A DNA stretch of 64,000 bases. Origin: Burkholderiaceae bacterium. GTDB taxonomy: Bacteria > Pseudomonadota > Gammaproteobacteria > Burkholderiales > Burkholderiaceae_F. The stretch lies in assembly GCA_019236735.1 (NCBI GenBank), contig JAFAIM010000090.1, positions 1 through 64,000 of the forward strand, given 5' to 3'. The notes beneath the pieces are model-generated. The model made no database searches, had not been told where the DNA came from, and worked only from the letters and a program-made list of their open reading frames with translations. Positions 33,639 through 39,306 of the stretch are shown here, piece by piece. The position numbers and the translations under genes are program-made. Numbering within the stretch: the first letter of the stretch is position 1; every line of letters starts with the position of its first letter.

Positions 33639-35309
33639 TCAGGTCTTCGCTTCACCCACCCAGGCCTTCACCACATTGGCGACCGTCGCCGGATCCGAGC
33701 GGGCAATCTGCCGCATCTGATCCAGCTGCGAGGTCGGCAGCTCGGAGCGCGCGGCCGGCAGCGACTCGGTCGCCGATGGCGTCTCGGCCATGATCACGGG
33801 CTGCGAGCTGATCGCTTTCAGGGCAGGGCGCACCACACCGAACACCACCACCAGCGTCAGCACCAGGAATAGCGTGGCCTGGCCGATTTCCTTTGCAAGA
33901 GCGATCACCTCGGGCTGCTGCCACACCGGGGTCGGTTCGACCGGCGGCAGCTCGAGTTGGCTGAACTCCACGTTCACGACGTTCAGCGAATCGCCGCGCT
34001 TTTCGTTGAAACCCATCGCCTCGCGCACGAGCGCCTGGATGTTTTCCATCTCTTTCGGAGACCACGCCACGCTCGCGGGTGCCGCCGCAGCAGCGGGTGC
34101 GCCAGCACCCGCCGAAGCCGGCTGGCCGGCGGAGGCGGGCGGCGCCGCTGGCGCGGGTTTGTTGTTGATGACCACCGCTGCGGTCAGGCGCCGGATCTCG
34201 CCGGTGGCCGTTTTGGTGTGACGCACGTTCTTGTCGATTTCGAAATTGGTCACCTGTTCGCGATGCGAGCTCGCGCCGGGCGCTTGGGGCGGCGTGGCCG
34301 CGGAGGCGGGCGCGGAGGCAGAGCCGTTGATCGGAGCGGTCGGCGGCACCGGAGGCTGGTTCGACAATGCGCCGGGAACGCCCTGCGGGCCGGCGCTTCC
34401 CGTGGTGGAGTTCTCGGTGCTCGACTGCGAGCGGATCGCCGCTTTGTCGGCGGACTGGTTCGGTTTGTACGACTCGTCCATCTGTTCGGTGTTGGAGAAG
34501 TCGACATCGGCCGTGACTTGCGCCCGTACGTTGGCGCGGCCGACGATCGGCTCCAGGATGTCCTCGATCCGCTTGATCGTCGACGATTCGATCTGCCCGA
34601 CATAGTCGAGCTGCTGTGCATCGAGCGCTCCTTCGCCTTCGCTCTGGCTGGCGAGCAGCGTGCCATGCTGGTCGACAACGGATACGTTCTTCGTGGTCAG
34701 CTCGGGCACGGACGAAGCGACCAGGTGGACGATTCCGGCAATCTGCGCGCGATCGAGCGTTTTGCCCGGATGCAGCTGAACCAGCACCGAAGCGGTCGGC
34801 GCCTGGTGATCGCGCAGGAAGCCCGAGCTCTTCGGCAGAGCAAGGTGCACGCGCGCGCCTGCCACGGGAGCGAGCGTCTGGATCGAGCGCGCAAGCTCGC
34901 CTTCCAGACCACGCTGGTAGTTGAGCTGTTCCTGAAACTGCGTCAGCCCGAACTTCTGGGACTCGAGGATCTCAAAGCCGACGATCGAGCCCTTCGGCAA
35001 GCCTTGCGAGGCGAGCTTCAGCCGGGCTTCGTGCACCTTGTCGGCCGGAACCAGGATCGTGCCTCCGTCGGCGTTGCGGTACGGAACATTCATCTGCGAC
35101 AACTGCGCGATGACGGCGCCGCCGTCACGATCCGACAGATTCGTGAACAGCACGCTGTAGCTGGGGTTTGCGCTCCACAGCCACGCGGCGCTGACGATTG
35201 CGCCGATCAGTACCGTGCTCAGCACCATCAGCGCGCGGGCGCGCGGAGAGAAGCGGCCCAGCAACCCTAGGGATCTCGCGGTGGTTGGAACGATCGAAGC
35301 GTTTTCCAT
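33639..35309 (-). CDS. fliF: Flagellar MS-ring protein FliF
   Basis: Forms the MS ring in the inner membrane; 556 residues from ATG 35309 (MENASIVPTTARSLG). Two transmembrane segments flank the large periplasmic region, near ALMVLSTVLIGAIVSAAWLW and GQATLFLVLTLVVVFGVVRPAL. Ring-building motifs include SVLFTNLSDRDGGAVIAQL and GLEGELARSIQTLAPVAGARVHLALP. The loop before the second helix is Ala/Pro-rich. The cytoplasmic tail that binds FliG is retained. Confidence 0.96.
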   Translation of the reverse strand: MENASIVPTTARSLGLLGRFSPRARALMVLSTVLIGAIVSAAWLWSANPSYSVLFTNLSDRDGGAVIAQLSQMNVPYRNADGGTILVPADKVHEARLKLASQGLPKGSIVGFEILESQKFGLTQFQEQLNYQRGLEGELARSIQTLAPVAGARVHLALPKSSGFLRDHQAPTASVLVQLHPGKTLDRAQIAGIVHLVASSVPELTTKNVSVVDQHGTLLASQSEGEGALDAQQLDYVGQIESSTIKRIEDILEPIVGRANVRAQVTADVDFSNTEQMDESYKPNQSADKAAIRSQSSTENSTTGSAGPQGVPGALSNQPPVPPTAPINGSASAPASAATPPQAPGASSHREQVTNFEIDKNVRHTKTATGEIRRLTAAVVINNKPAPAAPPASAGQPASAGAGAPAAAAAPASVAWSPKEMENIQALVREAMGFNEKRGDSLNVVNVEFSQLELPPVEPTPVWQQPEVIALAKEIGQATLFLVLTLVVVFGVVRPALKAISSQPVIMAETPSATESLPAARSELPTSQLDQMRQIARSDPATVANVVKAWVGEAKT

Positions 35310-35579
35310 TGGCTTTGGGCCGCGACCCGGCACGCCGGAGGCAGGCGCCGGCGAATCGCGGTTTCTGGAATCCGATTATTCGAAGACTTGAGATCCCGTA
35401 AACGCGGATAAGGAGAGGAAATCCGACCGTGCGTGCGTCGCGAAAGTCCGTCCAGCACAGACTGAAATTGCGCGGGAAATAGCGTAGGAAGAGCACCCTT
35501 CTCGTCTCAGTGTCCGGCGTCAGCTTGACTAGATTGGCTGCTGCGGCGGTCGAATTCTTAGGCCGTCTGCGGGGGAACA
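35310..35579. promoter_or_regulatory. Divergent fliF / fliE control region
   Basis: This 270-base gap must hold promoters for both the fliF run and fliE. I see no convincing sigma-54 or FliA consensus. AAATAGCG at 35477-35484 matches one half of the FlhDC binding consensus, on the fliE side, but a second properly spaced half-site is not obvious. FlhDC control is therefore only an inference. Confidence 0.35.
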
Positions 35580-35897
35580 ATGGATCTGAAGGCAATCAAT
35601 TCCCAAATTGCCACGGCCGTTGCCGGCGCACCGGCCGCGGGCGTCGGCGTGTCTGCGAAGACGGGCGGCGCCACATCCGATTTCGCCTCATCGCTGGACG
35701 CCGCACTGAAGGCGGTCAGCAACAGCCAGACGCAGGCCGAGGAGCTGCAGCGTCAGTTCGCGCTGGAGAATCCGAACGTCGGACTCGAAGACACCGTCGT
35801 TGCGATGAGCAAGGCGAGCATCTCGTTCGCCGCGGTCGTTCAGGTGCGCAACCGGCTGGTGCAGGCGTACGAGCAGATCATGTCGATGCAGGTCTGA
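35580..35897 (+). CDS. fliE: Flagellar basal-body rod / MS-ring junction protein FliE
   Basis: Rod adaptor of 105 residues, exported through the flagellar gate. The ATG follows GGGGGAACA. The C-terminal half is typical: FASSLDAALKAVSNSQTQAEELQRQFALENPNVGLEDTVVAMSKASISFAAVVQVRNRLVQAYEQIMSMQV. It is transcribed away from fliF and converges with cheZ, 33 bases separating the ends. Confidence 0.95.
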   Translation: MDLKAINSQIATAVAGAPAAGVGVSAKTGGATSDFASSLDAALKAVSNSQTQAEELQRQFALENPNVGLEDTVVAMSKASISFAAVVQVRNRLVQAYEQIMSMQV

Positions 35898-35930
35898 GCG
35901 CTTCTTCCGCGCTCCTGATCTCGACAATTC

Positions 35931-36620
35931 TTAGAAGCCCAAACTAGCGAGCAGGTCGTCCACGCCCTTTTGATCGCTGACGACATCGTCTCGACCCTGC
36001 GGTGAGACGGCCGGTCCTTGCAAATCCCTCGATTCGATTCGCGGCCGTTGCGCGGCCGGCGTGGTCTCGATCAGCAGCCGGACCAGTTGATCCTCGAGCG
36101 TCTGGGCAAGCATGACCACGCGCCGGATCACTTGTCCGGTCAGGTCGTGGAAGTCCTGCGCCATCATGATGTCGGTCAAAATGGTGTTGGTTCGTTCCGC
36201 CTGGCTTCCGACGCCGCAGAAAAACTCGCAGGTCTCGTCGACCAGCTCTTTGCCAGCCGGGGTGCAGCCGCGTCCGCCGGACGAAAAGGTCGAAACCGCC
36301 CGCCAGCGGCTGCGCAGGCTGTCGGCCTTTTCGGTGAGCTCCTGCTGCACGGTGCGGGCGCGGTCCACGGCGTTCAGCACCTTTTCGGCGGCCTCGCCGG
36401 TCACCCTGGCGATATAGGCCAAACGGTCGCGCGCATCGGGCAGGTTGGCGCGCGCGTCCATGAGTTCGCGTTCGTACCCGAGTTCCCGTAGTGCGTCGTG
36501 CAGCGTACGCGTCAGCTGGCCGATGCGGCGCCGCAGCGTGTCCTCGGCCGCCTCGGCGTCCTGTTCGGCGACGGCCTGCAAGTTGGCGTCTAGTGGCATG
36601 TAGTTGGCGTCTAGTGGCAT
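35931..36620 (-). CDS. cheZ: CheY-P phosphatase CheZ
   Basis: Dephosphorylates CheY-P to end the tumble signal; 229 residues from the upstream ATG. The catalytic helix reads IMMAQDFHDLTGQVIRRV, with the active-site glutamine at about residue 163, and the C-terminal CheY-binding peptide DDLLASLGF is intact. The N-terminus is a perfect duplication, MPLDANY repeated in part as MPLDAN, from a 21-bp tandem repeat, so either of two ATGs (36620 or 36599) could be used. No good ribosome-binding site precedes either, and the start lies in the stem of a 25-bp inverted repeat. Confidence 0.93.
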   Translation of the reverse strand: MPLDANYMPLDANLQAVAEQDAEAAEDTLRRRIGQLTRTLHDALRELGYERELMDARANLPDARDRLAYIARVTGEAAEKVLNAVDRARTVQQELTEKADSLRSRWRAVSTFSSGGRGCTPAGKELVDETCEFFCGVGSQAERTNTILTDIMMAQDFHDLTGQVIRRVVMLAQTLEDQLVRLLIETTPAAQRPRIESRDLQGPAVSPQGRDDVVSDQKGVDDLLASLGF

Positions 36621-36622
36621 GT
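36581..36622. repeat. Two 21-bp perfect tandem repeats at the cheZ start
   Basis: Copies at 36581-36601 and 36602-36622 are identical. Each carries the cheZ-strand sequence ATGCCACTAGACGCCAAC, so the start codon and six following codons are doubled in frame. Loss or gain of a unit would add or remove seven residues. Confidence 0.9.
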
Positions 36623-36684
36623 AACACCCGATTCGGGAGGGAAGGCGCGCAAGGCACTGCCGAATCGGGTGTTACATGCCACTA
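36612..36684. repeat. 25-bp perfect inverted repeat spanning the cheZ start
   Basis: Left arm 36612-36636 and right arm 36660-36684 are exact reverse complements, separated by 23 bases. In cheYZ mRNA the right arm comes first and the left arm, which contains the first cheZ ATG (36618-36620), would be fully base-paired. The two arms end sharply, with mismatches on both sides. There is no T-run, so it is not a typical intrinsic terminator. Possible roles are translational control, a transposition or recombination footprint, or a repeat element. Confidence 0.9.
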
Positions 36685-36779
36685 TGGGTGCCATCGTCGG
36701 TGTCCTGGTCAGTGCGGCTTGTTGTTGTTTGCCTGCCATGTGGTTTGCCAATGAGCGATCCGGAAGCCTCATGCACCGC

Positions 36780-37163
36780 TCAGGCTTGCTTGCTCAGGAT
36801 CTTCTGAACCTTCTCTTCGAGCGTCGCTTTGGTAAACGGCTTGACGATGTAGCCGCTGGCGCCACCCTGCGCGGCTTGCACGATGTCGTCCTTCTTCGAT
36901 TCCGCGGTCACCATCAGGAACGGGATCGACTTCAGAGCTTCGTCGGATCGAACGCTCTTGAGCAGCTCGAAGCCGTTCATATTCGGCATGTTGATGTCCG
37001 AGACAACGAAATCGAATTTGTTGGCCTTCAGCATGCTGAGCGCCACCACTCCGTCCTCGGCTTCCTCGGCGTTGGCGAAGCCGATCTCCTTCAGCAAATT
37101 GCGCACGATGCGCCGCATGGTCGAGAAGTCGTCGACGATTAGAAACTTCACATCGGCAGTCAT
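36780..37163 (-). CDS. cheY: Chemotaxis response regulator CheY
   Basis: Single-domain receiver of 127 residues that binds FliM when phosphorylated. ATG 37163 gives [24 protein letters not shown]. The phospho-acceptor is D56 (VVSDINMP), with acidic D11/D12, T86 in MVTAESKK and K108 in GYIVKPF, each one position before the E. coli residues. Upstream cheY-like chemotaxis genes (cheA, cheW) are not in the window. It precedes cheZ by 159 bases containing the inverted repeat. Confidence 0.97.
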
Positions 37164-37282
37164 GGGGTCTCCAGCGTGCATGCGCGCAGCCGTGGCCGGC
37201 GGCTGGCGTCGCCTCTGCATTGTGTCGGCCGGCGCAGCCGCCCTATTGACCGAAAAGGGCGCGCAAACATCGTGTTTCGCAC

Positions 37283-38341
37283 CTACTGCGAAGCAGGAGC
37301 TGTGGTGCCGGGTGCTGCGCTCGCGGGGGCAGGCGGCGCCGCTTGCACGCTTGCGGATGCGGCGCCCGCGTCGGGCGCGGCAGCGCCCGCCGTAGCGCCG
37401 ACCGGCGCGGAGGCGGGTGGTGCGAGCGAGTCGGTCACGTCTTGCGGGTCTCCCGCCTCGATCTCTCCGCGCGCTCGTTGCAACCGCTCCTCGGCGATCT
37501 TGTTCAGCACGATGATCGAGATGCGGCGGTTCAGCGGATTGCGCGGATCGTCCTTATCGAGCAGGCTCGAATCGGCCAGCCCTACGACGCGGGCGATTTT
37601 TACGGGATCCATGCCACCGGCGATCAGTTCGCGGCGCGATGCGTTGGCACGGTCCGCCGACAGCTCCCAGTTCGAATACGCCCGCTGCCCTCCCGAATAG
37701 GGTGTCGAGTCGGTATGGCCGGTCAGCGCGATCCGGTTGTCGACCCCATTTAACACCTTGCCGATTTCGTGCAGGATTTCGCGCATGTAGCTTTTGACCT
37801 TGGCGCCGCCCAGGTCGAACATCGGCCGCTTGAAGTCGTCGACGATCTGGATCCGCAATCCGTCCGGCGTGATCTCGACCCGGATCTGGTTGCGGAAATC
37901 CGACAGCGTCGCATTCGCCAAGATTGCGGCGTCGATGTGGCCTTTGAGCTCTTCCATTTTCGCGAGCTGCTCGCGGCGTTCCCCATCGCGCTGACGCTCG
38001 CCGCTTTTGTGATGATCGGCCTGCTGGCCGCGTTTGCGCTGGCCCACCGTGCGGGTTAGATCCTCGCCGCCGCCGGTGATGACCGAGGTGGCGTCGCCGG
38101 AACCGCTGCCGCCGCTCATCGCGACCTGCAGCGGAGACTGAAAGTATTGCGCGATACCCTTCAAATCGCCCTTGGTGGTCGAACCGAGCAGCCACATCAA
38201 CAAGAAGAAGGCCATCATCGCGGTCACGAAGTCGGCGTACGCGATCTTCCAAGCCGCCCCGTGCGAGCCGTGGCCGGCTTTCTTGATCCGCTTGATGACG
38301 ATCGTTGACTTGGCTTTTTCGCTGGACGACGAGGCGGTCAT
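37283..38341 (-). CDS. motB: Flagellar stator protein MotB
   Basis: Peptidoglycan-binding stator subunit of 352 residues. The single transmembrane helix carries the proton-binding aspartate ([22 protein letters not shown]37), after a basic N-terminus. The plug region and an OmpA-like domain follow: [38 protein letters not shown]. The tail is Ala/Pro-rich. It lies 24 bases after motA. Confidence 0.96.
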
Positions 38342-38365
38342 GTCGAAATCCGATCGTGTTCCTGG

Positions 38366-39220
38366 CTACCGCTTCTGCTTGACGTGCTTTTCGAGCTCGA
38401 CGAAGGTCGGCCGCTCGGTCGAGTACAGGATCTTGCGGCCGAACTCCACCGCCACCGCAGGCGCGTAGCCCTGCAGGCTGGCCAGCAGCGTCGCTTTCAC
38501 GCAGTTCAGCTCCTTGGTCGCTTCGTCGACCTTCTGCTCCAGCAGCTGCGCCAGTGGGCCGACGAAGCCGTAGGAGATCAGGATCCCGAGGAACGTGCCG
38601 ACCAGCGCCGCTGCGATCATCTCGCCCAGCACCGGCGGCGGCTGACCTACCGATGCCATCGTTTTGACCACCCCCATCACGGCGGCCACGATGCCGAAGG
38701 CCGGCAGTCCGTCGCCGGCCTTCTGCAGCGCGTGCGAGGGCGCCATCGCCTCGTGATGATGCGTGTCGATCTCCTGATCCATCAGGTTCTCGATCTCCAG
38801 CGGATTCATGTTGCCGGACACCATCATCCGCAGGTAGTCGGTGATGAACTCGACTAGGTGGTGGTCCGCGCCCACGCTCGGATGCTTCTGGAACAGCGGG
38901 CTCTTGGCGGGTTCGTCCACGTCGGACTCGATCGCCATCATCCCTTCCTTGCGCACCTTGGTCAGGATGTCGAACAGCAGCGCCATTAGCGCCAGGTATC
39001 GTGCCTTGGTGTACTTGGAGCCTTGCAGCAGCTTCGGCAGCGCGCGCAAGGTAGCGCCGAGCACCTTGGTCGAGTTGCCGGTGACGAACGCCCCGGTCGC
39101 CGCCCCCGCGATGATCAGCAGCTCGATCGGTTGGAGCAGGACGTGGAACGCGCCGCCTTCCATGGCGTAGCCGCCGAACACGGCTCCCAGGACCAGCACG
39201 TAACCGACGATGATGAACAT
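38366..39220 (-). CDS. motA: Flagellar stator protein MotA
   Basis: Four-helix proton-channel subunit, 284 residues from ATG 39220 (MFIIVGYVLVLGAVFGGYAM). The large cytoplasmic loop that contacts FliG contains DVDEPAKSPLFQKHPSVGADHHLVEF, and the third and fourth helices with their prolines are in GDGLPAFGIVAAVMGVVKTM and GTFLGILISYGFVGPLAQLL. It heads a motA-motB unit that may continue to cheY-cheZ. Confidence 0.96.
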   Translation of the reverse strand: MFIIVGYVLVLGAVFGGYAMEGGAFHVLLQPIELLIIAGAATGAFVTGNSTKVLGATLRALPKLLQGSKYTKARYLALMALLFDILTKVRKEGMMAIESDVDEPAKSPLFQKHPSVGADHHLVEFITDYLRMMVSGNMNPLEIENLMDQEIDTHHHEAMAPSHALQKAGDGLPAFGIVAAVMGVVKTMASVGQPPPVLGEMIAAALVGTFLGILISYGFVGPLAQLLEQKVDEATKELNCVKATLLASLQGYAPAVAVEFGRKILYSTERPTFVELEKHVKQKR

Positions 39221-39306
39221 GATGCCCAGCCCCGACTTTCGAGGCGAAGCGGCACACGCGCACAACCGCGGCCCCGCCCGCCCCGACTATTCATTGCGCT
39301 ACCGTT

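Follow-up and report, generated by a model that had tools for sequence, protein, structure and literature searches.

The locus raises the question of why the gene cheZ should begin inside one arm of a perfect hairpin, and of how CheZ could then be made. The window analysed here spans 64,000 nt, most of a 64.5-kb contig in the draft genome of a Burkholderiaceae bacterium (3.32 Mb in 95 contigs). As a preliminary description had reported, two perfect 25-bp arms (36612-36636 and 36660-36684, with 23 nt between them), one of which contains the cheZ ATG (36620-36618, minus strand), adjoin a perfect 21-bp tandem duplication (36581-36601 and 36602-36622) whose second unit repeats that ATG in frame; a repeat-finding tool extends the arms to 28 nt at 96% identity. 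That description offered two interpretations, a device that switches or damps CheZ translation and the scar of a small element, and it is the second that our results bear out: the hairpin is a miniature inverted-repeat transposable element (MITE) that has siblings in the genome and TA target duplications, whose ends match those of an IS630 and which a same-genus relative lacks. Our reading, to which we assign a probability of roughly 0.8, is that a 71-bp IS630-type MITE inserted at a TA within the first codons of cheZ and that CheZ would still be made by coupled termination-reinitiation, the coupling being the part that we infer from sequence.

The cheZ hairpin as one copy of a dispersed MITE

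A 93-bp hairpin query gives 56 BLAST matches genome-wide at E <= 0.001, a figure in which both strands of one element are often counted. The arm core (TGTAACACCCGATTC, at most 2 mismatches) has 43 matches in the 3.3-Mb genome versus 0 for a reversed-pattern control, far above chance because the repeat is dispersed. Across 31 loci examined, 28 elements show at least one recognisable end when up to 6 mismatches in 23 are allowed, while the remaining three loci (L094-L096) have no recognisable element end. Sixteen elements are two-ended, with lengths of 166 bp, 65-84 bp or 43-50 bp; 14 of these are bordered by TA on both sides, and the other two have one altered end base. The target is CTAG in 9 of the 14 TA/TA elements. 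At the five other sites (cheZ, a response regulator gene, C15, C36 and C57), the flanks agree in TA alone, and therefore the duplication is 2 bp long and the repeat itself begins GTGGC.

These elements are dispersed in multiple copies, have terminal inverted repeats, lack a transposase gene, duplicate a 2-bp TA, prefer CTAG and share their ends with a DDE_3 transposon, as expected of IS630-type MITEs. REP/BIME repeats are associated with RAYT transposases and lack a target duplication, so the TA duplications count against that class. A preference of IS630 for CTAG is said to have been described by Tenzen and Ohtsubo in 1991. The TA duplication matches the insertion mode of the IS630 family, as in ISY100, which inserts almost exclusively into TA and duplicates it (PMC2170065; this and the other papers are cited here in excerpt). 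An IS5-type element or MITE with a 4-bp CTAG duplication, of the kind described for MITEPsy1 (PMC3189936), was rejected because the 4-bp flanks differ at the non-CTAG targets compared (cheZ, the response regulator gene, a speE-like gene, C15 and C36), where TA alone is common to both sides. The cheZ hairpin is one MITE copy and not a private switch.

Rearrangement of the cheZ start

The element and its surroundings are laid out as follows, with the upstream genes last.

36612..36684: MITE copy, short form, 73 bp including both target TAs (71 bp added), with 25-bp perfect terminal inverted repeats TAGTGGCATGTAACACCCGATTCGG
36683..36684: target TA duplication, cheY-side copy
36612..36613: target TA duplication, cheZ-side copy
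36692..36694, minus strand: presumed original cheZ start ATG, AGGA upstream
36611..36694, minus strand: 27-codon upstream frame (MAPIVACNTRFGSALRAFPPESGVTCH, then stop), crossing the entire element
36611..36613, minus strand: TAG stop formed by the target TA and the next G, in a 10-nt overlap with the donated ATG (ATGCCACTAG)
36618..36620, minus strand: cheZ start ATG from the repeat end, GGGTG 4 nt upstream
36602..36622, minus strand: 21-bp unit, copy 1 (element end and flank)
36581..36601, minus strand: 21-bp unit, copy 2 (later tandem duplication)
36597..36599, minus strand: second in-frame ATG, 11 nt beyond the TAG and outside the hairpin
35931..36620, minus strand: cheZ (Pfam CheZ, 1.1e-64)
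36780..37220, minus strand: cheY, upstream in the same presumed operon; open reading frame as listed, with the conserved start internal; named from its translation
37283-38341: motB, upstream of cheZ, named from its translation
38366-39265: motA, upstream of cheZ, named from its translation

The reconstructed target reads ATG GCA CCC A|TA GAC, and the MITE would have inserted at its TA, in the first cheZ codons. The frame of the ATG at 36694-36692, which went unmentioned in the preliminary description and is preceded by AGGA (-4.0 kcal/mol for the duplex with the anti-Shine-Dalgarno sequence, anti-SD), would run into cheZ if the element were absent. With the element present, this frame meets no stop within it and terminates after 27 codons at TAG 36613-36611, across which the repeat end lays ATG CCA CTA in the cheZ frame with a 10-nt overlap. 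That frame contains two more ATGs farther upstream, 45 and 78 nt from 36694-36692, so the argument is independent of which original start served.

Ribosomes would thus start at the original cheZ site, open the hairpin while translating the 27 codons, stop at the TAG and restart at the overlapping donated ATG. Since 11 bp of the 21-bp unit come from the element end and 10 bp from the flank, the unit was duplicated after insertion; from then on, the ATG 11 nt downstream of the TAG could serve as an alternative restart. CheZ would still be produced, though its first residues would differ and its amount might have changed. Coupling of this kind is reported to require that the two frames overlap or lie very close together; 4 and 1 nt are the commonest overlaps, and a small class in E. 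coli lies near +10 nt (PMC10666635). At cheZ, the first ATG overlaps the TAG by 10 nt while the second stands at +11. From this arrangement we infer coupled termination-reinitiation at cheZ. Chemotactic selection for coupled CheY and CheZ levels has been shown in E. coli (PMC2716512), and a changed CheZ start could therefore matter.

The hairpin has a predicted folding energy of -48.8 kcal/mol, and the predicted unpaired fraction is 0.00 in the region of the arm ATG, 0.58 around the duplicated ATG and 0.50 around the upstream ATG. The earlier statement that the cheZ mRNA lacks a visible ribosome-binding site is correct for the duplicated ATG (anti-SD duplex, +0.5 kcal/mol) but not for the arm ATG, which follows GGGUG at 4 nt (-3.8 kcal/mol). 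Because four other genes have an equal layout, the cheZ hairpin looks like a by-product of the element's mode of insertion and not a structure built for cheZ.

Repeat ends at other gene starts and stops

Half of the elements (14/28) lie on a start or stop codon. An ATG from the repeat end opens six genes, namely cheZ, nuoI, flhA, a hyfB-like gene (Proton_antipo_M), the response regulator gene and a speE-like gene, all six with Pfam families; nuoI and hyfB are names that we assign to the Fer4 and Proton_antipo_M proteins. Five of these six genes have an upstream start whose frame crosses the element and closes at a TAG overlapping the new ATG. Only half of the element remains at nuoI and flhA, where the upstream frame crosses that half. 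In the same-genus relative, the starts of the response regulator and hyfB-like genes are uninterrupted and alignable, and its nuoI start, ATG AGC AAG, resembles (by eye, not from an alignment) the GTG AGC AAG that precedes the half element.

A Pfam scan of the start-side proteins found a family in eight of nine, including RidA and a glutamine-amidotransferase, which are left out of the start count; the ninth, a 216-aa frame at C60:139179, has none. Weak or antisense frames flagged in the first frame scan are likewise excluded from the counts. By our own count, 6 of 30 ATG-bearing ends lie at gene starts versus 0 of 14 other ends, which is at most suggestive of a link between the two.

At eight elements, a repeat TAG serves as the in-frame stop of nine genes in all (DUF3458_C, ABC ATPase, CDGSH, patatin, TatC, BLUF, ETF alpha, lipid A acyltransferase and AHSA1). 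A 43-bp element at L048:1502-1544 (G000:C16:17305-17347) lies in a single CTAG that the convergent CDGSH and patatin-like genes share as a stop, and both genes retain TAG. In other metagenome-assembled genomes (MAGs), a frame of >200 codons ends on the element TAG in 10 of 13 stretches, with Pfam families in all 10 scanned. In those MAGs, stops often interrupt the element-crossing frame in one orientation, so a frame open in both orientations is a feature of this genome's copies. The elements at L102:968-1133 and L085:1164-1329 are each entered in the open register by a long, putatively coding frame, of 322 and 423 codons respectively, which could thereby be lengthened by about 55 C-terminal residues.

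Relation to IS630 and occurrence in other genomes

Ends matching those of the MITE are found on an IS630 in a genome of the same order (G096; L173:953-2051, G096:C11), where a 352-aa transposase (DDE_3, 2e-24) lies between TAGTGGCCTGTAAC and GTTACAGTTCACTA. The left end is the C variant of the repeat over 14 bp, in which C replaces the A that makes the ATG, while the right end agrees at 12/14. The transposase frame ends ..GTT ACA GTT CAC TAG, its last codon consisting of the target TA and a G, and in the same register the open frame through the MITE ends ..GTT ACA TGC CAC TAG; the TAG-terminated frame of the MITE may have been inherited from the end of the transposase gene. DDE_3 matches were obtained in 3 of the 11 other genomes searched, and the loci L172 and L174 were rejected as parent since, of the three, L173 had the matching pair of ends. 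The resident IS630 of the host (L088:392-1505, G000:C93), the genome's only DDE_3 match, was rejected as a partner because its ends differ (CTAGTATCTAGTTGC).

An exact-pattern scan places the C-variant end in at least 13 stretches of other MAGs (Chromatiales Ww634, 8; Burkholderiaceae bin 39, 2; Burkholderiaceae bin 241, 1; a Betaproteobacterium, 1; a Rhodospirillaceae, 1). The A-for-C change is present in this genome and in 0 of those 13 stretches. Counting our own genome, the repeat pattern occurs in 6 of 399 genomes of the order, and a 171-bp long-form query matches 8 of 67 genomes of the family, four of them strongly; the matches in G001, G004, G067 and G079 are weak (E 1e-4 to 1e-3) and were left out as members. 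No pair of ends about 1 kb apart appears among the matches listed for seven genomes, and plasmids gave no element match at E 1e-5. Other genomes of the order carry MITEs with related ends (TAGTGGACTGTAAC and similar) and other interiors (L167:1865-2026, L168:610-709 and L169:1861-1960).

Weighing the explanations

Several observations weigh against a MITE insertion followed by coupled translation. A DDE_3 element with ends of the MITE type was not found in the host genome. The N-terminus of the relative's cheZ is too diverged for alignment across the site, so that the empty site at cheZ is a reconstruction, and the overlaps at which coupling is commonest are 4 and 1 nt in the excerpted survey (PMC10666635), not 10 nt. 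The speE-like gene is a variant of the layout, with a TAA stop and an original start that is unrecognisable at the reconstructed site. RidA and a frame that we read as pilus-ATPase-like are in register with a repeat-end ATG but appear to have downstream starts of their own; the 216-aa frame without a Pfam match is also in register with such an ATG, good evidence for use of the ATG being absent in all three, and the glutamine-amidotransferase gene is out of register with its element.

The same MITE could also have left CheZ to be translated independently, from the donated or the duplicated ATG and uncoupled from the upstream frame. The GGGUG 4 nt before the donated ATG (-3.8 kcal/mol) and the partly open region of the duplicated ATG (0.58 unpaired) speak for such initiation, but the predicted fold pairs the arm ATG region completely (0.00 unpaired), the duplicated ATG lacks a Shine-Dalgarno sequence (+0.5 kcal/mol), and the open frame that runs through the element from an AGGA-preceded start makes passing ribosomes likely. 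We regard independent translation as possible, if rather doubtful. That the insertion damaged cheZ, leaving a gene in decay, appears unlikely. The original start has indeed been cut off and the first codons replaced, but the CheZ domain is complete (profile positions 3-203 of 203), and cheZ retains 72.5% identity to the same-genus relative over 229 aligned positions with a ratio of nonsynonymous to synonymous divergence (dN/dS) of 0.177, compared with 0.072 for cheY; because a pairwise dN/dS mostly reflects the time before insertion, these values remain compatible with a recent decay of cheZ.

If the hairpin had instead evolved at cheZ as a regulatory RNA that switches or damps CheZ translation, the other interpretation offered earlier, a very stable predicted fold (-48.8 kcal/mol) over the start codon would be explained. 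Elements of the same type are nevertheless found at many unrelated loci, gene ends included, and no Rfam family reaches its gathering score in positions 35001-38500, where the best match, a microRNA model with 25.6 of 60.4 bits, is taken as chance; we consider this origin improbable. An assembly error at the junction is unlikely, to the point that we give it hardly any weight: the genome is a draft in 95 contigs, but the junction lies within a motA-motB-cheY-cheZ run, with both flanks in one gene run, and the architecture recurs at unrelated loci in siblings with TA duplications, two of them with alignable uninterrupted starts in the relative.

Comparison with known elements

MITEs of this size that carry TA and come in two length forms are familiar from bacteria (PMC2229807). 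The pneumococcal RUP, an IS630-mobilised MITE (IS630-Spn1), has 9-bp terminal repeats in the excerpted account (PMC2229807); the cheZ element resembles it in being small and non-autonomous, in its TA target and in its IS630-like ends, and differs in its 25-bp perfect repeats, in the several lengths of its family and in ends that contribute TAG and ATG codons at the edges of genes. The Correia or NEMIS elements of Neisseria have 24-bp terminal inverted repeats, TA termini, two main length forms and hairpin transcripts (PMC2229807). By description only, and in other hosts, they are similar to the cheZ element in repeat size, termini and length forms, but what is described for them is reading-frame fusion, in contrast to the end-and-restart layout seen here.

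Rickettsia palindromic elements and enterobacterial RU elements also enter reading frames (PMC2759123, PMC2229807), and RU-2 forms the N-terminal part of several annotated loci (PMC2759123). In the portions cited, RU-2 at gene 5' ends is the nearest precedent that we found, with the difference that the Rickettsia and RU elements produce fusions that add element-coded residues, whereas the cheZ MITE ends the original frame and restarts that of the host, whose protein acquires only about three repeat-derived residues (MPL) at one end. Coxiella QMITEs touch genes, in one case as a C-terminal extension, and the excerpted text reports no apparent effect on the 5' ends of genes of known function (PMC5896051), unlike the six 5' ends of Pfam-recognised genes affected here. 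We found no report of a MITE end acting as an end-and-restart start codon in the literature searched, mainly non-subscription journals and in excerpt.

Translation read inward into the elements of this genome meets an immediate TAG (a regenerated stop), a TAA after four codons or an open frame; through the 73- and 166-bp forms, in either orientation, the open frame leads to a TAG/ATG overlap at which the original frame would restart. It is tempting, if speculative, to see the element ends as portable translation punctuation, but the internal stops often found in one orientation of other MAGs' copies count against such a generalisation. On this view, the A-for-C change gave rise to the ATG and could have allowed the family to establish itself in the opening codons of important genes. 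The apparent starts of CheZ, NuoI, FlhA and others derive from a transposable-element end, where automated start calls and searches for ribosome-binding sites may err. The affected genes form a natural series with one common overlap, usable for measuring termination-reinitiation, and make it possible to test whether a mobile element is tolerated by virtue of the usable stop and start codons at its ends.

Target sites and gene edges

CTAG is depleted about nine-fold in the window (23 occurrences in 1-64000 versus about 208 expected from base composition). By crude codon-score gene calls, the 21 CTAGs outside the element comprise 3 stops, 5 intergenic and 13 genic copies, and 10 of the 13 are CTA codons, the register that puts the donated ATG in frame. 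Special targeting would then be unnecessary: CTAG is rare within genes, occurs as C-TAG stops and in its genic copies mostly as CTA codons, and the repeat end would rescue insertions in the CTA register while other genic insertions would be lost. Insertion at CTAG together with the loss of harmful insertions can, by this reasoning, account for the observed pattern. Preferential targeting of stop codons is likewise unneeded, as similarly crude gene calls already assign a stop codon to 6 of the 17 CTAGs that lie outside elements in the Ww634 loci.
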